In this document: positions 54,719-62,825 of the stretch, in pieces
Layout of the letters: each line of letters begins with the position of its first letter
Position numbering within the stretch: position 1 is the stretch's first letter
Assembly: GCF_001641085.1 (NCBI RefSeq)
Contig: NZ_LXIE01000012.1
Coordinates: forward strand, 124,001-188,000
Direction of reading: 5' to 3'
Source of the DNA: Aequorivita soesokkakensis
GTDB taxonomy: Bacteria > Bacteroidota > Bacteroidia > Flavobacteriales > Flavobacteriaceae
DNA length: 64,000 nt
The notes under the pieces: generated by a model
The model's input: the letters and a program-made list of their open reading frames with translations, nothing else
Told to the model about the DNA's origin: nothing
Databases searched by the model: none
Made by a program: the position numbers and the translations under genes

Positions 54719-57280
54719 TTAAAACAAAACCTGAAACGAAAAGTTTGGCGTAATTCCCAAAGAAATTTCCTCAATTTGGTTTACGGTTATTTCATTGTTT
54801 TCATCCCGTGCCAAAGCATAGCGGATGTTAATAGTATTTTCCGTATTCAACAGGTTTAAAAGCGCAATATTTATTTTTGCATCAATGGAAGGGGAGAGCT
54901 TCCAAAGATATTCCGCAGAAAGATCTGCACGGAAATAATCCGGCAAACGCTCGTTGTTTGGAGCGTCAAATTGAATGGTCGTTATTCCGCCCTCAGTGGT
55001 TGTCTCAAAATTTTCCAAAGGAATTGTATAGGGTTTTCCGCTGTGCCAATTAAGTCCCAAAGCGATTTTCAAGGCATTTAAAGAATAGGTTCCTGCAAGC
55101 GTTGCGGAATGCTGAACATCCAAATTATTTGCAAACGTTGATGGTTCGAGATTTTCAAATTCATAATTATTTTTGCTGTACATATAGCTAAGCCACGTAC
55201 TGAACGATTTCGTTTTTTTGTTCACCACAAATTCGGCGCCTTTTACCGTATAATTTCCAATCGCTTTTGAAAACTGGAACTGGTTTTGAAGCCCTTGGTT
55301 TGCACTGTTTATATTTTCCACTATTTTGTAAAAACCTTCCAAATTCATAAAAAGCCCTTTTTTGCTATAGACCAAACCTGCGGAAGCCTGCTTGCTTTTT
55401 ATGATTGGCGTGTTTTCGCCATCTGCCAAAATCCATCTTCTTTTTTCGATGCCGAGAAAATCACTTTCAAAATCAATTCGTTGCGTAGTGCTTTGGCTTT
55501 TGAATTCCCCCAAAACCTCAACGGCAAAGCCATTTCCAAATTTTTGGTGCAAACTTAGACGTGGTTCAATTAAAATTTCCCCAAACTTTGAAAAATAATT
55601 TCCACGAACGCCTCCAAAAACAAAGGTATTTTGATTGTTTGAAACAAAATTCAATCCCGCAAAAAGCGCGTGTGTTCGCAAAACATTCTTTTCATAATCG
55701 CGGAATCGCGGCAGATTTACATCCTGTGTATTTGCTATTCCAATTTCTGAAAAATGATAGCCAGCTTGAAGCTTTAAAGTTTCCGAGAGCCCAATATTGG
55801 CGTCAAGTTTAGCACCCGTTTCCAAAACTTCGTTTTTTTGAATTTGCTCTTGGGTAGTGAAGATGTCTTTATTTATGGCATCCAGCAAGTAATAAGTGCC
55901 GTAAAACAAAGCAGTTGTCTCAATATTGTCGTTCCAAAAACGATTCCACGAAACGCCGCCCAATAAGCTGCGTTGGTCCAGCTCGCTGGTTTTTGATTGT
56001 GAATTGGTTTCCAAGGTTTCTGTGAAATCCAGCGAATTGTCAATCGTTAAAAAGTTGACGCGCACTTTATCTTTTTCCGAAATATCCCACAATAATTTGG
56101 TGCTGAAATCGTAAAAACTGAAATTTTCATCAGCAGTAATTGCGACATTATTTTCAGTGTTTTCAATGTTCGAAATTTCACTGTCCTGAAAAATACGTTT
56201 GGTGTAATTTTTATAAATAGGCGATTCCCAAAGATGGTTGATGGATTTTCTTGCGGCAACTTGAATGCCGAGTTTTTCTGAAACGGGAATGTCCAAAAAC
56301 CCGCTGCCATTCACCAAATTGAAACCAATTCCCGCTTCGGTTTCTGACGAAATCTTGTTTTTTGAACGCATATCGATAACCCCCGAAACGCCTTCGCCAT
56401 AACGAATGTTTGTCCCGTTTTTATAAATAATTACGTTTTTGGTAATGTCAGGGTTCACAGCCGAAATGAGACCGAAAAAATGCCCGCTTTGATACATTTT
56501 TATATCGTCCCAAAGCAGCAGGTTTTCATCGTGCGTTCCCCCGCGAATGTTGATGTTTGAAATGGTTTCGTCCACACTTTCCACTCCGGGCAACGCCTGA
56601 GTAATCTGCAAAACATCCCCTTCAACCTGTCCGGGCAACAGTCCGAAATTTTCAGTTGAAATAGTAATTGATCCATCCAGATTTTTATCAATTCCCTTTG
56701 TGAAAATATTTTGGACGATAACTGTTTCCAATTCAGAAACAGACGGTACTAAAAGCAAGGCAGAACAGTCATTTGAAAGGTTTGAAGTGTTTACTTTAAT
56801 TGATTTATAGCCCACAAACGAAACCGTAAAACTTACTTTTTTGTGATGGGCTGGGATATAAAAAAAGCCTTCCGCGTTTGAAATGGTGTTGAACGAATTG
56901 TTTTCAGATACAATCGTTGCGCCTTCCAACGGTAACTGGGTTTCAAAATCGATTATACGCCCGCAAAGGCTACCATCGTTTTCTTTGGAAGTAATGGTTA
57001 TGTAGCGTTCGTTGATGCGGTGGTAAAGTAAAGGTGTGTTTTCACGAAGATACGAAAGCACATTTTCTATTGAAGTGTTTTCATTTGAAAGTGGTTTCAG
57101 TTTAATTCCATCAACTTCCTCACGGACATAGGAAAACCTAACATTGAATTCCTTTTCCAAAAATTTCAAATAGGTCAAGAGTGTAGTATTATCAGTTTCC
57201 TGTGCAATGGATTTGGATCCAAAAGCACAGAAAACTAAAAGGAAAACCAAGATTTTGTAGCTACTCGCTATTTTTGGCAT
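54719..57280 (-). CDS. TonB-dependent receptor/transducer with STN domain
   Basis: 853 residues. Signal peptide to about residue 25, then an STN signalling domain (KFLEKEFNVRFSYV...YITITSKE, about 30-110), a CarboxypepD_reg-like domain (CGRIIDFETQLPLEGATIV), a plug (about 200-320, GTHDENLLLWDDIKMYQSG), and a beta-barrel ending FSFQVLF. The STN domain is the contact for FecR, so this is a transducer that signals ligand uptake to the sigma factor. Ligand unknown; no iron box or SusD partner is present. Start overlaps the fecR end by 20 bases. Confidence 0.88.
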   Translation of the reverse strand: MPKIASSYKILVFLLVFCAFGSKSIAQETDNTTLLTYLKFLEKEFNVRFSYVREEVDGIKLKPLSNENTSIENVLSYLRENTPLLYHRINERYITITSKENDGSLCGRIIDFETQLPLEGATIVSENNSFNTISNAEGFFYIPAHHKKVSFTVSFVGYKSIKVNTSNLSNDCSALLLVPSVSELETVIVQNIFTKGIDKNLDGSITISTENFGLLPGQVEGDVLQITQALPGVESVDETISNINIRGGTHDENLLLWDDIKMYQSGHFFGLISAVNPDITKNVIIYKNGTNIRYGEGVSGVIDMRSKNKISSETEAGIGFNLVNGSGFLDIPVSEKLGIQVAARKSINHLWESPIYKNYTKRIFQDSEISNIENTENNVAITADENFSFYDFSTKLLWDISEKDKVRVNFLTIDNSLDFTETLETNSQSKTSELDQRSLLGGVSWNRFWNDNIETTALFYGTYYLLDAINKDIFTTQEQIQKNEVLETGAKLDANIGLSETLKLQAGYHFSEIGIANTQDVNLPRFRDYEKNVLRTHALFAGLNFVSNNQNTFVFGGVRGNYFSKFGEILIEPRLSLHQKFGNGFAVEVLGEFKSQSTTQRIDFESDFLGIEKRRWILADGENTPIIKSKQASAGLVYSKKGLFMNLEGFYKIVENINSANQGLQNQFQFSKAIGNYTVKGAEFVVNKKTKSFSTWLSYMYSKNNYEFENLEPSTFANNLDVQHSATLAGTYSLNALKIALGLNWHSGKPYTIPLENFETTTEGGITTIQFDAPNNERLPDYFRADLSAEYLWKLSPSIDAKINIALLNLLNTENTINIRYALARDENNEITVNQIEEISLGITPNFSFQVLF

Positions 57281-58172
57281 TTATAATTACAGTTCCGTTT
57301 TCGTTTGTGATATAATTCAAATGTAAGGGTTCACAGATAGCTTTTAATGCCAGCTCCAGATTTTCATGGGTAAAAGTGCCCGAAAATCTATGTTCAGAAA
57401 CTACTTTTTCCGAAGTTATCTTAATTGGATATTGTCTTTCTAATTCTTTAAGTACTAAGGAAAGAGGCGCATTTTCAAAATTACTTTCGTGGGCAAGCCA
57501 TACTGGGGAAGGGGTATCGGCAGTTTCATTTATCACTAATTTCCCGTTTTCAATCTGAACTTTACTTCCCGCGGGTACTTTTAAAAGTGTATCATTGAAA
57601 GCAACACTTACCAAACCTTCGTAGCAAGCAACCGTAAAAAGCCCATCCCGCGCAAACACATTAAACTGCGTTCCCAAAACACTTACAGTACCTTCAACGG
57701 TTTTTACGCTGAATTTATTTCCTTTTGTTACTTTGAAATAAGCCTCGCCGTCCAAAGAAAGCTCACGGGAATTGGTCCAGTTCTTTTTGTTATAGGTAAT
57801 TTTTGAACCTGCGTTCAGCACAACTTCAGAATTATCGGGCAATGAAAAAGTTTCGGTCTGCGCAATTTCAGTTTTTACTGAAGTGTCCAAAGTGGTTGTG
57901 TAATAATAACCAACCAACAAAACCGCAAACACGGCGGCCACTTTCCAGACAATTGAAAAAATATTTGGTTTGTGCAATTGATGCACTGGTTTTATTTTAT
58001 TTGAAATGGCTTTAAAGTTTGATTCGCTGTCCATTTCTGGCATTTCAAAACCAGCACTTGCTGCGGCAATTTGGATATACGAAGCATATTCCGGATCAGT
58101 CTTTAACTGTTCCAGTTCTTCGGGAGTAGCTTCATTGTTGAGCCATTTGTGCAATAAGTAGTCTTTCTCCAT
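57261..58172 (-). CDS. FecR-type anti-sigma factor
   Basis: 303 residues from ATG 58172. I prefer this to ATG 58187 because the promoter -10 element (58197-58190) would put transcription start only a few bases before it. A cytoplasmic N-terminal part (about 1-80), one membrane helix (IVWKVAAVFAVLLVGYYYTT), FecR domain (FSLPDNSEVVLNAGSKITY...GEAYFKVTKGNKFSVKTVEG) and a C-terminal STN-like DUF4974 domain. It holds the ECF sigma until the transducer signals. Confidence 0.9.
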   Translation of the reverse strand: MEKDYLLHKWLNNEATPEELEQLKTDPEYASYIQIAAASAGFEMPEMDSESNFKAISNKIKPVHQLHKPNIFSIVWKVAAVFAVLLVGYYYTTTLDTSVKTEIAQTETFSLPDNSEVVLNAGSKITYNKKNWTNSRELSLDGEAYFKVTKGNKFSVKTVEGTVSVLGTQFNVFARDGLFTVACYEGLVSVAFNDTLLKVPAGSKVQIENGKLVINETADTPSPVWLAHESNFENAPLSLVLKELERQYPIKITSEKVVSEHRFSGTFTHENLELALKAICEPLHLNYITNENGTVIINAKNSE

Positions 58173-58189: not shown

Positions 58190-58220
58190 GTTAAACAGCT
58201 AAGTTGCGTGTTACCCTACC
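58190..58220 (-). promoter_or_regulatory. ECF-sigma-type promoter before fecR-tonB operon
   Basis: GGTAGGGTAA (58220-58211), 13 bases, TGTTTAAC (58197-58190) on the minus strand. Same -35 element and same spacing as the sites at 58788 and 61218. It differs from the vegetative TTTG/TAnnTTTG pair. Confidence 0.7.
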
Positions 58221-58228
58221 TTAAAAAT

Positions 58229-58738
58229 TTAAATATTTCCAATTTCCTTCCGAAGTGTTGCCAGCGCTTGGCTCATTCGTTTTTCCACTGCTTTCACTGA
58301 AATGTTCAGCATTTCGGCAATTTCAGCATATTTTTTTCCTTCTATTCTGTTTAAAAGAAATGCGGTGCGTTGTGCTTCAGTAAGATTTTCAAGTGAGGAT
58401 TTAAGTTTTTCGTGAAATTCCGATTCCTCCATCAAAAACTCTGGGGAATGGAAATTTGTTTTTTCAGGTTGACTTTTCGCGTGCTTTAAAATTACTTTTT
58501 TGTGCGCTACTTCGTTTAAAAAAGCATTATTGCAAACAGTATATAAAAACGATTTTGCTTTTTCCTGCGTAACCTTTGCACAATTCTGCCATAATTTTAT
58601 AAAAGCTTCCTGCACCAAATCATCCGCTTGCGCCGTATCGCCACACTTAAAATAGATAAACCGCCAAACAGGTTTTCCGTGGGCTTCATACAAGCGATTA
58701 AATATATTTTCGTTACAAACGTTTTCGGGTTCTTTCAT
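58229..58738 (-). CDS. ECF-type RNA polymerase sigma factor (FecI-like)
   Basis: 169 residues from ATG 58738 (a TTG 21 bases upstream is less likely). Region 2 (FNRLYEAHGKPVWRFIYFKCGDTAQADDLVQEAFIKLWQN), region 4 (LTEAQRTAFLLNRIEGKKYAEIAEMLNISVKAVEKRMSQAL). First of the sigma-fecR-tonB set, with fecR start 56 bases past its stop; the fecR promoter lies in that gap. Divergent to lipoprotein 1. Confidence 0.92.
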   Translation of the reverse strand: MKEPENVCNENIFNRLYEAHGKPVWRFIYFKCGDTAQADDLVQEAFIKLWQNCAKVTQEKAKSFLYTVCNNAFLNEVAHKKVILKHAKSQPEKTNFHSPEFLMEESEFHEKLKSSLENLTEAQRTAFLLNRIEGKKYAEIAEMLNISVKAVEKRMSQALATLRKEIGNI

Positions 58739-58787
58739 AAACGGGTTGATGGATTTCAAATATATTTAAAAGTTTTTCAAGTTGGTG

Positions 58788-58818
58788 GGTAGGGTTTATT
58801 TTAATTTATTTGTTCTAA
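58788..58818 (+). promoter_or_regulatory. ECF-sigma-type promoter before lipoprotein 1
   Basis: GGTAGGGTTT (58788-58797), 13 bases, TGTTCTAA (58811-58818), 24 bases before the GTG start. Nearly identical in both elements and identical in spacing to the site at 61218. Confidence 0.75.
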
Positions 58819-58842
58819 CATAAACCAACAAATTTTTTTAGG

Positions 58843-60606
58843 GTGAAAAAAATACAACTCTTACTATATTTTGCATTACTTTCTTTATGTATTGCGCTTT
58901 TCTCTTGCCAAAAAGAGGAAAAAGAATTTATAGATGAAACTCCCGAGGATACCATAACGGCAAATTCGCCCTTAACGGGCTTGCTGTTGCGAACCTCCCA
59001 AAATCCTGGTACTTATGATGATTTAATTGATGGAAATGGATGCGCTTCCGTATTGCTTCCCGTAACCGTAATTGCCAACGGGCAGCAAGTAACGATAAAC
59101 ACTCCCGAAGATATTTTGTTAATCGAACAGATTTTCAATCAGTTTCCCAACGACACTGATACCTTGGAAATTAGTTTCCCCATCACGCTTGAATTGTTTG
59201 ATTTCACCCAAGTAACCGTAAACAACCAAGCCGAATTGGACGCTCTGGCGGCAACCTGCAACTCAAACAACACTGAAATTGGCTGTTTGGATTTTGTGTA
59301 TCCAATCACATTTTTCACTTATAATGCAGATCAGCAGCAAACGGGTTCTGTGATTGTGAATAGTGATTTGGAACTTTTCAGTTTTCTGCAAGGTTTGGGC
59401 CCGAATGATTTTATCAGTTTGGATTTTTCTATTTCTGTAATACTTGCTGACGGTTCAACTTCCGAAGTGAACAGTAACCAACAATTACAAGCCTTGATTT
59501 TGGACTGCGTGGCAAATACCAATACTGACCCGATAGACATTTCACAATTTGAGGAAGATTTGACAACTGGGGTTTGGTATGTTGAATACTTTTTTGATGA
59601 CTATGACGAGACTGATAATTATGCCGGTTATGAGTTTAGTTTCGCTTTGGATGGAACTGCACAAGCCGTAAAATCTGGAAATACCATAGCTGGAACTTGG
59701 GCGCTTGTTGACGATTTTAAATTCGATCTTTTCTTCGGAACCAATGCGCCTTTGGATGAATTGGACGAAGATTGGGAAATACTGGAAGCCACTTCTGAAA
59801 TTATTAAACTGAAACACATCAGCGGCAGCGATGGTAGTACAGATTATTTAACGTTCGGCCGTAATCCTAATACCGGCGGGAACAATACAGAATTAAATCT
59901 TTTCATAGAAAACCTGAGCACCGGAAGTTGGTTCGTAAACTTGCTGGAGGAAAATGGAAGTGATCACACTGCAAATTTTAATGAATATGAATTTACATTT
60001 TTAAGAAACGGGGATGCAATTGCCGTGAGCAGTGGCAATACAATTAATGGCTTTTGGACTGCTGAAATTGATAGCGGAAATTTGGATTTTATCTTAAATT
60101 TTGAAACTACAACAAATGGCGATTTCTCTGAATTGAACGATGATTGGGACGTTTTGGAAGCCACACAAACCATTATCCGTCTTTCTGATGTAAGTGGTGG
60201 CGGAGGCGGAACAGATCTTCTAACGTTTGGTCGCGAACCAAATGGAGGAGGCGGTGGTGGCCCAGATCCACAGGAGCTTCGTGATATTCTGCAATCGGGT
60301 ACTTGGTACATTGAAAAATATTTGGACGATGGAGGCGATGAAACATCTGATTATTCTGGATATGATTATACCTTCTTTGCCAATCAAGATGTTTTGGCTA
60401 CAAAAGGCTCTCAAAATGTTGATGGAATATGGATTATATCCGTGACCGGACAAGAATTAAACTTTGAATTTGATATGGACAGCCCCATAAATGGAACTGA
60501 CGATGATGAATACAAAGCGCTTCAATATTCGCCAACCTCAGTAACTTTTATTACCCGGAATAGTGATGGGGAAATTGAAGATACTTTGATCTTCAAAAAG
60601 AATTAG
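58843..60606 (+). CDS. Modular surface lipoprotein 1 (two A domains, three B domains)
   Basis: 587 residues, GTG start. Signal with lipobox LFSC (residue 22). An LLLRTSQN segment, then two ~75-residue cysteine-bounded domains (A1 about 67-139, A2 about 148-223: PITFFTYNADQQQTG, SISVILADGSTSEVNSNQQL), then three ~110-residue modules (B1 235-343, B2 352-465, B3 478-587) with the pattern W-F-DD-ET-GY-F-F-G-GTW and SGG-GGTD-LTF. B3 is diverged. Linkers are glycine-rich (NGGGGGGP). B-modules look like lipocalin-type small barrels; no function is known. Expressed likely from the ECF promoter. Confidence 0.78.
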   Translation: MKKIQLLLYFALLSLCIALFSCQKEEKEFIDETPEDTITANSPLTGLLLRTSQNPGTYDDLIDGNGCASVLLPVTVIANGQQVTINTPEDILLIEQIFNQFPNDTDTLEISFPITLELFDFTQVTVNNQAELDALAATCNSNNTEIGCLDFVYPITFFTYNADQQQTGSVIVNSDLELFSFLQGLGPNDFISLDFSISVILADGSTSEVNSNQQLQALILDCVANTNTDPIDISQFEEDLTTGVWYVEYFFDDYDETDNYAGYEFSFALDGTAQAVKSGNTIAGTWALVDDFKFDLFFGTNAPLDELDEDWEILEATSEIIKLKHISGSDGSTDYLTFGRNPNTGGNNTELNLFIENLSTGSWFVNLLEENGSDHTANFNEYEFTFLRNGDAIAVSSGNTINGFWTAEIDSGNLDFILNFETTTNGDFSELNDDWDVLEATQTIIRLSDVSGGGGGTDLLTFGREPNGGGGGGPDPQELRDILQSGTWYIEKYLDDGGDETSDYSGYDYTFFANQDVLATKGSQNVDGIWIISVTGQELNFEFDMDSPINGTDDDEYKALQYSPTSVTFITRNSDGEIEDTLIFKKN

Positions 60607-60613
60607 AAATTTC

Positions 60614-60641
60614 AATAAACAATAAACAATAAACAATAAAA
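60614..60641. repeat. Tandem heptamer array, unit AATAAAC, 3.5 copies
   Basis: Three exact AATAAAC units and AATAAAA. Lies 12 bases before the ATG of lipoprotein 2, between lipoproteins 1 and 2. Confidence 0.75.
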
Positions 60642-60652
60642 AAGTTTAAACT

Positions 60653-61120
60653 ATGAAAATCCTATTAAAAGCAACACTCGTTATTTTTATTTACACAGGT
60701 TTGGCAATGTCATGCGACAAAGATGATGATAACAGCCAACAGCAAAACACAACTATTCCACAAACTATAAATACTGCACAAAGTGGCAGTTGGAAAATCA
60801 CTTACTTTTTTGATTCAGATCATGAAGAAACGGGGCATTTTACAGGCTATGTGTTTACTTTCAATGAAAACGGTTCTTTGGTAGCTGTTAAGGGAAGCAC
60901 AACAGTAACCGGAACTTGGTCCGTAACAGATAGCAATTCAAGCGATGATGATGGAGGTTCAAATGATACGGATTTCAATATTTTCTTCGCTTCTCCCGCA
61001 GACTTTGAAGACCTTTCTGATGATTGGGATATTATTTCGGTGAGCAATTCAAAAATTGAACTGACCGATGTTAGTGGCGGAAATGGAGGTACAGACTTTT
61101 TAACATTTCAAAAAATTTAA
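60653..61120 (+). CDS. Modular surface lipoprotein 2 (single B domain)
   Basis: 155 residues: signal MKILLKATLVIFIYTGLAMSC with lipobox AMSC, a spacer, then one B module (about 41-155) with GSWKITYFFDSDHEETGHF, TGTWSVTDS, and DVSGGNGGTDFLTFQKI. The single-domain form is the minimal unit of the family. Probably co-transcribed with lipoprotein 1 (46-base gap) and followed by a terminator. Confidence 0.78.
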   Translation: MKILLKATLVIFIYTGLAMSCDKDDDNSQQQNTTIPQTINTAQSGSWKITYFFDSDHEETGHFTGYVFTFNENGSLVAVKGSTTVTGTWSVTDSNSSDDDGGSNDTDFNIFFASPADFEDLSDDWDIISVSNSKIELTDVSGGNGGTDFLTFQKI

Positions 61121-61147
61121 AAATTAATTTTTTCTTTCCCCAATTAG

Positions 61148-61172
61148 ACCATCCTTTTAGGATGGTTTTTTT
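61148..61172 (+). terminator. Rho-independent terminator after lipoprotein 2
   Basis: ACCATCC (61148-61154), loop TTTTA, GGATGGT (61160-61166), T7. Confidence 0.88.
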
Positions 61173-61217
61173 ATGCCTTTAATTATTAATTTTTTTCATT
61201 ATTAATTTAAGAAATAA

Positions 61218-61248
61218 GGTAGGGTTTTTTGAAGGTTATCTGTCCTAA
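61218..61248 (+). promoter_or_regulatory. ECF-sigma-type promoter before lipoprotein 3
   Basis: GGTAGGGTTT (61218-61227), 13 bases, TGTCCTAA (61241-61248), 25 bases before the ATG. Confidence 0.75.
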
Positions 61249-61273: not shown

Positions 61274-62776
61274 ATGAATAAATTAGCTAAACTTTCTTTC
61301 TTAACCTTCTTATTGATTTTTCTAGTAAGCTCCTGTACAACTGAAGATTCATTGCCTTTTGATGATTCTAATTCAGATATGGTAGCAGTAAATTCTGAAT
61401 TAGGAGACTTACTCCTTCGCACTTCAGATAATAACAATACTTCTTCCATAGATTGTATAGACCTTGTTTATCCGCTTACTTTCTTTATCTACAACTCAGA
61501 TCAGCAACAAACTGGAACGCAGACGGTAGGTAACGACGGTGAACTGCTTGCTTTATTGCTTTCCTTGGATCCTGGAACTTATATTGCCTTGCAGTTTCCC
61601 ATAAACGTTGTATTGCAGGATGGCACTGTTGTAGAAGTTAACAGCAATGCAGAATTGGTAACATTAATTTCTGATTGTTCATCTAACGGCGGTGGTTTTC
61701 CTTCAGATTTTGAAACTATATTGACCACGGGCTCTTGGTTTGTCACTTATTTTTTCGATGATCAAGATGAAACTGGTGATTTTGCTGGATATGAGTTTAC
61801 CTTTAATCCAGACAATACTGCTCAAGCCGTAAGTACTGCAAATAGTGTAGATGGAACTTGGAGCCTTACAAATAGCAACACCCCGGATCTAAACCTTTTC
61901 TTTGGAAATAATACTCCTTTTGATGAGCTGGACGAGGATTGGGATATTATAGAAGCAACTCAAGATATCATTAAACTGAAGCACATTAGCGGCGGAGACG
62001 GAAGTGTTGACTTTTTAACTTACGAACGCACACCCAATGGCGGCGGCGGGGGAAATACTTCTGAATTCACTGATAATTTGATAAATAGTGTATGGTATGT
62101 AAATTTATTGGAGGATGATGGAAATAATGAAACCTGCCATTATGTGGAGTATGAATTTAAATTCAATGCCAATGAAACTGTTACAGCTATAAGCACAAGC
62201 AACACAGTTAATGGTACTTGGGCAGTCACCAACAGTAGCAGCGGAATAGACCTTATTTTAAATTTTGAGATAACTGGCAGCGATGATCCTTTTGAAGATT
62301 TAAACGATGATTGGGACGTAACAAGCTTTGATGCACAAATCATAAAATTAATTGATATTAGTGGTGGTAATGGCGGAACAGATTACTTGAATTTTGGCAG
62401 AAACCCTTACGAAGATTGTAATGGAGGAGGTAATACCACAGAGCTTGCCAATATTTTAATGGATGGGCAATGGTATGTGCAAAGCTATATAGACGATGGC
62501 GATGACGAAACCAACGATTACAACGGTTATACCCTTACTTTTAATTCTGATGGAACTGTAGTTGCCGCAAATAATAGCAATACAATCAACGGGACTTGGA
62601 GTGTTGTTAACAGTAGTAATGGTCTTGATGTACTATTGGATTTTGGAACCGCGATGCCTTTTGATGAATTTAATGATGATTGGGATGTTGTTACCTACAA
62701 CAATACAAGAGTTGAGCTATTTGATGTTAGTGGAGGTAACGGTGGTACTGATTACTTGACATTTCAAAAACTTTAG
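61274..62776 (+). CDS. Modular surface lipoprotein 3 (one A domain, three B domains)
   Basis: 500 residues; signal with lipobox VSSC (residue 21), an LLLRTSDNN segment, one A domain bounded by Cys61 and Cys135 (PLTFFIYNSDQQQTG, INVVLQDGTVVEVNSNAEL), then three B modules (about 146-252, 262-375, 388-500). B1 of this protein is closest to B1 of lipoprotein 1 (TAQAV, KLKHISG), so whole-gene duplication is likely. Acidic, Asp/Asn-rich mature part, probably exposed on the cell surface and calcium-tolerant. Followed by a strong terminator. Confidence 0.8.
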   Translation: MNKLAKLSFLTFLLIFLVSSCTTEDSLPFDDSNSDMVAVNSELGDLLLRTSDNNNTSSIDCIDLVYPLTFFIYNSDQQQTGTQTVGNDGELLALLLSLDPGTYIALQFPINVVLQDGTVVEVNSNAELVTLISDCSSNGGGFPSDFETILTTGSWFVTYFFDDQDETGDFAGYEFTFNPDNTAQAVSTANSVDGTWSLTNSNTPDLNLFFGNNTPFDELDEDWDIIEATQDIIKLKHISGGDGSVDFLTYERTPNGGGGGNTSEFTDNLINSVWYVNLLEDDGNNETCHYVEYEFKFNANETVTAISTSNTVNGTWAVTNSSSGIDLILNFEITGSDDPFEDLNDDWDVTSFDAQIIKLIDISGGNGGTDYLNFGRNPYEDCNGGGNTTELANILMDGQWYVQSYIDDGDDETNDYNGYTLTFNSDGTVVAANNSNTINGTWSVVNSSNGLDVLLDFGTAMPFDEFNDDWDVVTYNNTRVELFDVSGGNGGTDYLTFQKL

Positions 62777-62799: not shown

Positions 62800-62825
62800 A
62801 AGCCACGGTTTCCCGTGGCTTTTTT
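62800..62825 (+). terminator. Rho-independent terminator after lipoprotein 3
   Basis: AAGCCACGG (62800-62808), loop TTTC, CCGTGGCTT (62813-62821), then T6. Confidence 0.9.

Follow-up and report, generated by a model that had tools for sequence, protein, structure and literature searches.

Which RNA polymerase sigma factor reads the promoter-like sites that surround the gene of an extracytoplasmic function (ECF) sigma factor in Aequorivita soesokkakensis, and does that code extend to its relatives? The window analyzed here is a stretch of 64,000 nucleotides (nt) of contig NZ_LXIE01000012.1 (positions 124,001 to 188,000; assembly GCF_001641085.1), in which genes for the ECF sigma factor, a FecR-family membrane anti-sigma/transducer, and a TonB-dependent receptor adjoin three lipoprotein genes (Table 1). 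An initial annotation had described three 31-base sites, preceding fecR, lipoprotein 1, and lipoprotein 3, and had proposed that the adjacent sigma drives them as a local regulon. ECF promoters of the Bacteroidota are little known, and according to a 2020 study, the alternative ECF sigmas of Bacteroides thetaiotaomicron were at that time all without a known motif (PMC7366714). We consider it highly probable that the locus is a FecI/FecR/TonB-receptor cell-surface signaling system whose sigma reads these promoters and would thereby drive the fecR-receptor and lipoprotein operons. FecI-type systems are already known; the conserved promoter code found here is strongly supported by comparison between genomes. 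Sequence comparison alone brings out the motif, its positions, its co-occurrence with the sigma, and its joint change with the sigma recognition helix, and from these a probable promoter, a wiring, and a −35 code for a Flavobacteriaceae ECF sigma lineage.

Re-reading of the sequence found the three sites as first described, with the −10 heptamers TGTTCTA, TGTCCTA, and TGTTTAA, and inspection by eye agreed that none shows a vegetative pattern. A search for GGTAGGGT-N15-TGT without mismatches returned three matches in the 64 kb, which are the three sites alone; 100 dinucleotide shuffles of the window gave a mean of 0.01 exact matches, and no shuffle held three. When up to two mismatches were tolerated, the window contained eight matches against 6.6 expected; because this loose scan shows no excess, just the exact sites stand above chance. 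The genome scan that the initial annotation had suggested produced four exact matches in 3.19 Mb, and the motif is therefore near-unique. With up to one mismatch, the genome contained 20 matches, below the 55 obtained with the reversed pattern. Of the 16 with a single mismatch, 15 fall within open frames of 80 or more codons and were discounted, and one, at locus L017, falls outside.

The claim that each site lies at a promoter-like distance from a start codon held for the lipoproteins, where 25 nt separate the seven-base −10 element from the GTG of lipoprotein 1 and 26 nt separate it from the ATG of lipoprotein 3. It failed for fecR if the first ATG (58187) is taken, just 3 nt from the −10 element and at or before the expected transcript start, and holds for the in-frame ATG at 58172, which is 18 nt away and agrees with the start in relatives. 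There, 10 to 29 nt, mostly 15 to 29, separate the end of the −10 element from the conserved fecR start, and the distance in the Aequorivita loci favors the later ATG. Because of this distance and the start used in relatives, we moved the fecR start, which is probably 58172 and not 58187.

Conservation was assessed in the best 80 of 559 confirmed sigma relatives, which are 53 to 93% identical to the query, the nearest being that of A. todarodis (93%). Every one of the 80 loci has a site between sigma and fecR, and 68 of them have one on the divergent side. The 12 loci that lack the divergent site belong to Tenacibaculum (9) and Flavicella (3), and none of the nine Tenacibaculum loci has a divergent gene upstream. 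A distal third site 1982 to 2631 bases upstream, like that of lipoprotein 3, was found with at most one mismatch in 13 of the 80 loci, the gene behind it not being identified throughout. The site score was tuned on the motif, and the fair comparison is its background rate: one of 923 random stretches, mostly coding, scores as well. Near the sigma gene, where spacers of 8 to 24 were scanned, 115 of 121 GTAGGGT-to-TGTT pairings have a spacer of 15. Since orthologous loci have common ancestry, such conservation could in principle be inherited flanking sequence rather than function. We regard that explanation as having almost no chance of being right: most spacer positions are highly variable while the −35 element, the spacer length, and the −10 element are fixed between sigmas of such diversity, and inheritance leaves unexplained an unlinked site before a lipoprotein gene with the same domain (see below).

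Co-occurrence of sigma and motif was examined in 199 evenly drawn Flavobacteriaceae genomes, 140 of which encode a relative of the sigma (E ≤ 1e-20) and 59 of which do not. The pattern GTAGGGTW-N14-TGTTnTA has 213 sites in 80 of the sigma-positive genomes and two sites in two of the sigma-negative ones (reversed pattern: 19 and 5 sites, respectively), and a second pattern, GGTAGGA-N16-TGTTnTA, has 181 sites in 78 sigma-positive genomes and four sites in four sigma-negative ones (reversed: 22 and 4). One or the other class is present in 127 of 140 sigma-positive vs. 6 of 59 sigma-negative genomes, and a GGA site occurs in 47 of the 60 sigma-positive genomes that lack a GGGT site. In a shortened-spacer control, which was run for the GGA class, removal of one spacer base left 12 sites instead of 185, with 26 for its reversed pattern. 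In 116 genomes of the class outside the Flavobacteriaceae, there was no excess of sites (3, vs. 8 for the reversed pattern).

The two −35 classes, GTAGGGT and GTAGGA, track the recognition helix of the sigma. Nine of the 80 loci encode a sigma with the helix IS(T/R)KAVEKRIY, and their 18 sites comprise 16 GTAGGA and two GTAGGGA. In the remaining 71 sigmas, the two helix positions are occupied by V, I, or E and by S or H; of the 130 sites beside these sigmas, 129 are GGGT (two of these being TTAGGGT) and one is GGGA. The two residues presumably correspond to V167 and F175 of E. coli sigma E, within the helix that reads the −35 element. Helix and −35 class also agree at 79 of 79 sites in 40 further sigma regions, which were picked by their motif sites from several hundred listed, so that only the helix remained to be read, the site class being given; two of them, G115:C76 (= L135) and G148:C33 (= L124), had been read before. 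In this set, all 41 sites of the 21 sigmas of the T/R..Y type are GGA, and all 38 sites of the 19 sigmas with the other helix (one with Q replacing V/I) are GGGT. Four genomes (G115, G155, G024, and G148) hold both sigma types, each sigma being flanked by its own class, and such natural paralogue pairs allow specificity to be compared. On contig JABDNT010000034.1, two sigma-fecR-receptor systems (L047 and L087) lie ~8 kb apart, with different −35 classes and matching helices.

A motif common to several operons could in principle be the operator of some other DNA-binding regulator, with vegetative promoters beneath it; no search for a shared regulator gene was made. This is a very improbable account, given the two-part motif with its fixed spacer, the usual distance of 15 to 31 nt from −10 element to start codon, and a −35 class that follows residues of the sigma helix. 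A TGTT −10 element has also been noted at promoters of one Bacteroides ECF sigma, in a motif that its authors call nonsignificant (PMC12596196). It is somewhat less improbable, but still unlikely, that several ECF sigmas serve the sites and the adjacent one is one user among them. The genome of the window encodes eight other ECF sigmas (E ≤ 1e-5), and overlapping ECF regulons have been considered for Flavobacterium psychrophilum (PMC9723704). Yet the genes of those eight sigmas are on contigs that have no exact site, the GGGT motif is near-absent where this sigma lineage is missing (two sites in 59 genomes, in which other ECF sigmas, although not counted, are likely), and in the four two-paralogue genomes each sigma keeps its own class. 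The occupation of the same two places in relatives, the co-occurrence across genomes, and the joint change of −35 element and helix make the regulatory link of the sites to the adjacent sigma, as the initial annotation proposed, very likely on comparative grounds.

Several observations weigh against a code read by this sigma. Thirteen of the 140 sigma-positive Flavobacteriaceae genomes have neither motif class and six of the 59 sigma-negative ones have one; at most 18 candidates per genome were scored for sigma; and the two groups of genomes differ in ancestry and size, the genomes not being independent data points. One T/R..Y sigma, L131, has a GGGT site; it is among 29 further loci that partly duplicate genomes of the 80, and the counts relied on are those of the 80 loci or the 40 regions. 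In a tree that excludes row L104, the reading of which was truncated, the GGA sigmas group as a single clade (100/98), so that the helix change may have happened just once; their sister, L105, has one GGGT and one GGGA site. A fifth, more distant gene of the same domain in the window genome (C36, L211) has no site upstream, its best score being 11.4 against a threshold of 16.5. The 199 genomes hold 215 sites of every kind; of 40 distal ones inspected in other genomes, 13 lack a plausible gene start in the next 300 nt and seven fall inside open frames of 250 codons or more, so that some of the distal set is due to chance. We lean, by a modest step beyond an even chance, to the view that a Flavobacteriaceae sigma-promoter pair was duplicated and diverged into two insulated pairs (GTAGGGT with V/I and S/H; GTAGGA with T/R and Y) that are kept together in single genomes, a natural orthogonal code set by very few residues whose regulon would feed a surface lipocalin-receptor capture system.

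Table 1. Features of the sigma-fecR-receptor-lipoprotein locus, in window coordinates
Feature	Coordinates	Strand	Basis or remark
TonB-dependent receptor gene, 853 amino acids (aa)	54719..57280	minus	Pfam Plug 27.2 bits and CarbopepD_reg_2 above cut-off
fecR, membrane anti-sigma/transducer gene	57261..58172	minus	Pfam FecR 4.3e-18, FecR_C 3.6e-13; start corrected
Candidate ECF-type promoter between sigma and fecR	58190..58220	minus	exact motif
ECF sigma gene, 169 aa	58229..58738	minus	Pfam Sigma70_r2 1.5e-14, Sigma70_r4_2 8.1e-17
TATATTTG, match to vegetative −7 box TAnnTTTG	58757..58764	minus	18 nt before sigma start codon
Candidate ECF-type promoter of lipoproteins 1 and 2, divergent from sigma	58788..58818	plus	exact motif
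Lipoprotein 1 gene, 587 aa, GTG start, several lipocalin-like repeats	58843..60606	plus	matches lipoprotein 2 at three places; model
Lipoprotein 2 gene, 155 aa, single lipocalin-like domain	60653..61120	plus	model, Foldseek
Terminator-like hairpin 3′ of lipoprotein 2	61146..61168	plus	consensus match
Candidate ECF-type promoter of lipoprotein 3	61218..61248	plus	exact motif
Lipoprotein 3 gene, 500 aa, lipocalin-like repeats	61274..62776	plus	Pfam GH43_C and DUF4923 above cut-off; three matches to lipoprotein 2
Terminator-like hairpin 3′ of lipoprotein 3	62800..62821	plus	consensus match

The sigma gene itself is wired differently. No sigma-type site was found in the 300 nt upstream of it in any of the 80 loci, and therefore the sigma appears, by this comparison, to drive the anti-sigma/transducer genes and not its own gene. 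The 120 nt preceding sigma contain TAnnTTTG, the vegetative −7 box (PMC7366714), in 52 of the 80 loci, vs. 119 of 1600 mostly coding stretches taken at random from the loci. In the window, this box and the divergent ECF promoter stand back to back (58757-58788), an arrangement in which two polymerases might compete. The best NCBIfam match of the sigma is TIGR02985 (Sig70_bacteroi1), at 126.2 bits against a cut-off of 126.4. A gene of ~300 aa follows sigma in the related loci, the correspondence to fecR being judged by length only. Because the receptor gene overlaps the 3′ end of fecR, the two are probably one operon. The putative N-terminal signaling-type domain of the receptor matches FecR_C at 24.2 bits, slightly below the cut-off of 24.4, and a search of solved structures returned no sequence relative of the receptor at E ≤ 0.01.

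The nearest published wiring that we found is that of HasI/HasS, the heme uptake signaling pair of Serratia, in which HasI acts on hasS but not on its own gene (PMC9249621). The likeness, drawn from gene order and predicted sites, concerns the wiring only: here fecR and the receptor gene are probably one operon, the other targets are lipocalin-like lipoproteins, and no Pfam family of heme or hemophore uptake was found among the seven window proteins scanned. Like the E. coli FecI/FecR/FecA system, the locus combines a sigma, a FecR-family anti-sigma, and a TonB-dependent receptor, here with a putative N-terminal signaling-type domain, and the E. coli sigma operon is likewise reported not to be autoregulated (PMC9249621). 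Unlike E. coli, where fecI and fecR have one promoter, fecR here has its own sigma-type site, and no ferric citrate transport genes were found among the same seven proteins.

The flow of signal, the release of the sigma, the transcription start sites, and the surface location of the lipoproteins and their service to the receptor's ligand are what we infer, as follows. The vegetative promoter would supply sigma at a basal level, and FecR, a membrane protein, would hold it until a ligand at the TonB-dependent receptor sends a signal through FecR that frees it; polymerase with the freed sigma would then read (G/A)GTAGGGT-N15-TGTTnTA promoters. The targets would be fecR and the receptor gene (feedback onto inhibitor and sensor), lipoproteins 1 and 2, lipoprotein 3, and one or more unlinked lipoproteins that share their lipocalin-like domain. 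Lipoproteins 1 and 2 are probably in one operon, and the hairpins and spacing fit two separate lipoprotein transcription units with one predicted site each; the terminator-like hairpins are consensus matches, of which the region contains 14 vs. 7.2 in shuffles.

The description of a local regulon is supported for the three sites of the window but slightly too narrow. The fourth exact site of the genome, on another contig (C13:52822), is followed after ~70 nt by a lipoprotein gene, the product of which shares its C-terminal domain with lipoproteins 1 to 3 (BLASTP E 1e-22 to lipoprotein 2). A gene akin to this unlinked lipoprotein gene directly follows such a site in L170 (E 1e-19), of another genus, and in L169, of a further genus, the kin gene is the second frame behind the site (E 7e-21), the first being a 95-residue frame that lacks this domain. 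A lipobox-like start, by a simple pattern, lies downstream of seven of the 40 distal sites. The unlinked lipoprotein combines a twin-arginine translocation (Tat)-like signal with an extended tract of DDGYY repeats and a single lipocalin-like domain.

The lipobox cysteine is invariant in 26 of 26 and 21 of 21 aligned rows. The lipoprotein 2 model is an eight-stranded barrel (mean predicted local distance difference test, pLDDT, 79.4; predicted template modeling score, pTM, 0.70), with weak Foldseek matches to DUF4822, DUF4847, and lipocalins (best E 1.3e-3), and that of lipoprotein 1 contains several lipocalin-like domains (pTM 0.38), DUF4822-type proteins being its best Foldseek matches, followed by TbpB-type lipoproteins at a template modeling (TM) score of ~0.1. 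TbpB-type surface lipoproteins are similar in having repeated beta-barrels and in being encoded with a TonB-dependent receptor, an analogy only, and differ in that the match is poor (TM ~0.1, ~10% identity) and DUF4822-type lipocalin-like proteins match better. The idea that the lipoproteins capture the receptor's ligand is a guess from analogy; the promoter code would tie to surface signaling a lipocalin-like lipoprotein family that had no assigned role.

Among the papers listed by our literature searches, we recognized none that assigns this motif to an ECF sigma, although such an assignment may be in print, for example as a predicted motif in the ECF classification. SigW-1 of B. thetaiotaomicron is similar in having TGTT at about −10, in the motif stated to be nonsignificant (PMC12596196, available text), and promoters of the PM2 class have elements at −10 and −30 (PMC7366714). 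The available parts of these two papers do not mention a −35 GTAGGGT or GTAGGA, and they concern another ECF lineage with other targets. The SM6 promoters of F. psychrophilum, of the same bacterial family, are also ECF-type, but have a −10 region with CGT and serve type IX secretion genes, as given in the accessible part of PMC9723704. The word FecR is absent from the main text of that paper insofar as it was available, and its authors state that more ECF starts may await discovery (PMC9723704).

Other distal sites have neighbors of different kinds. Near-identical sites, spacer included, occur in four genomes (G086:C23:43575, G103:C18:17197, G106:C24:23207, and G126:C22:898706), that of G086 being inside a 280-codon open frame; these four may be conserved coding sequence and not promoters, in which case the distal count would fall. 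In L154 and L186, from two genera, the gene behind the site encodes the same membrane protein, and the next gene looks, by eye, ferredoxin-like, the L154 site being in a 299-codon open frame; the pattern is a possible redox branch of the regulon. The distant domain gene of the window genome, L211 (9859-10278 on C36), encodes a divergent lipocalin-like lipoprotein and lies beside a gene for a protein with, by eye, a type IX secretion-like tail.

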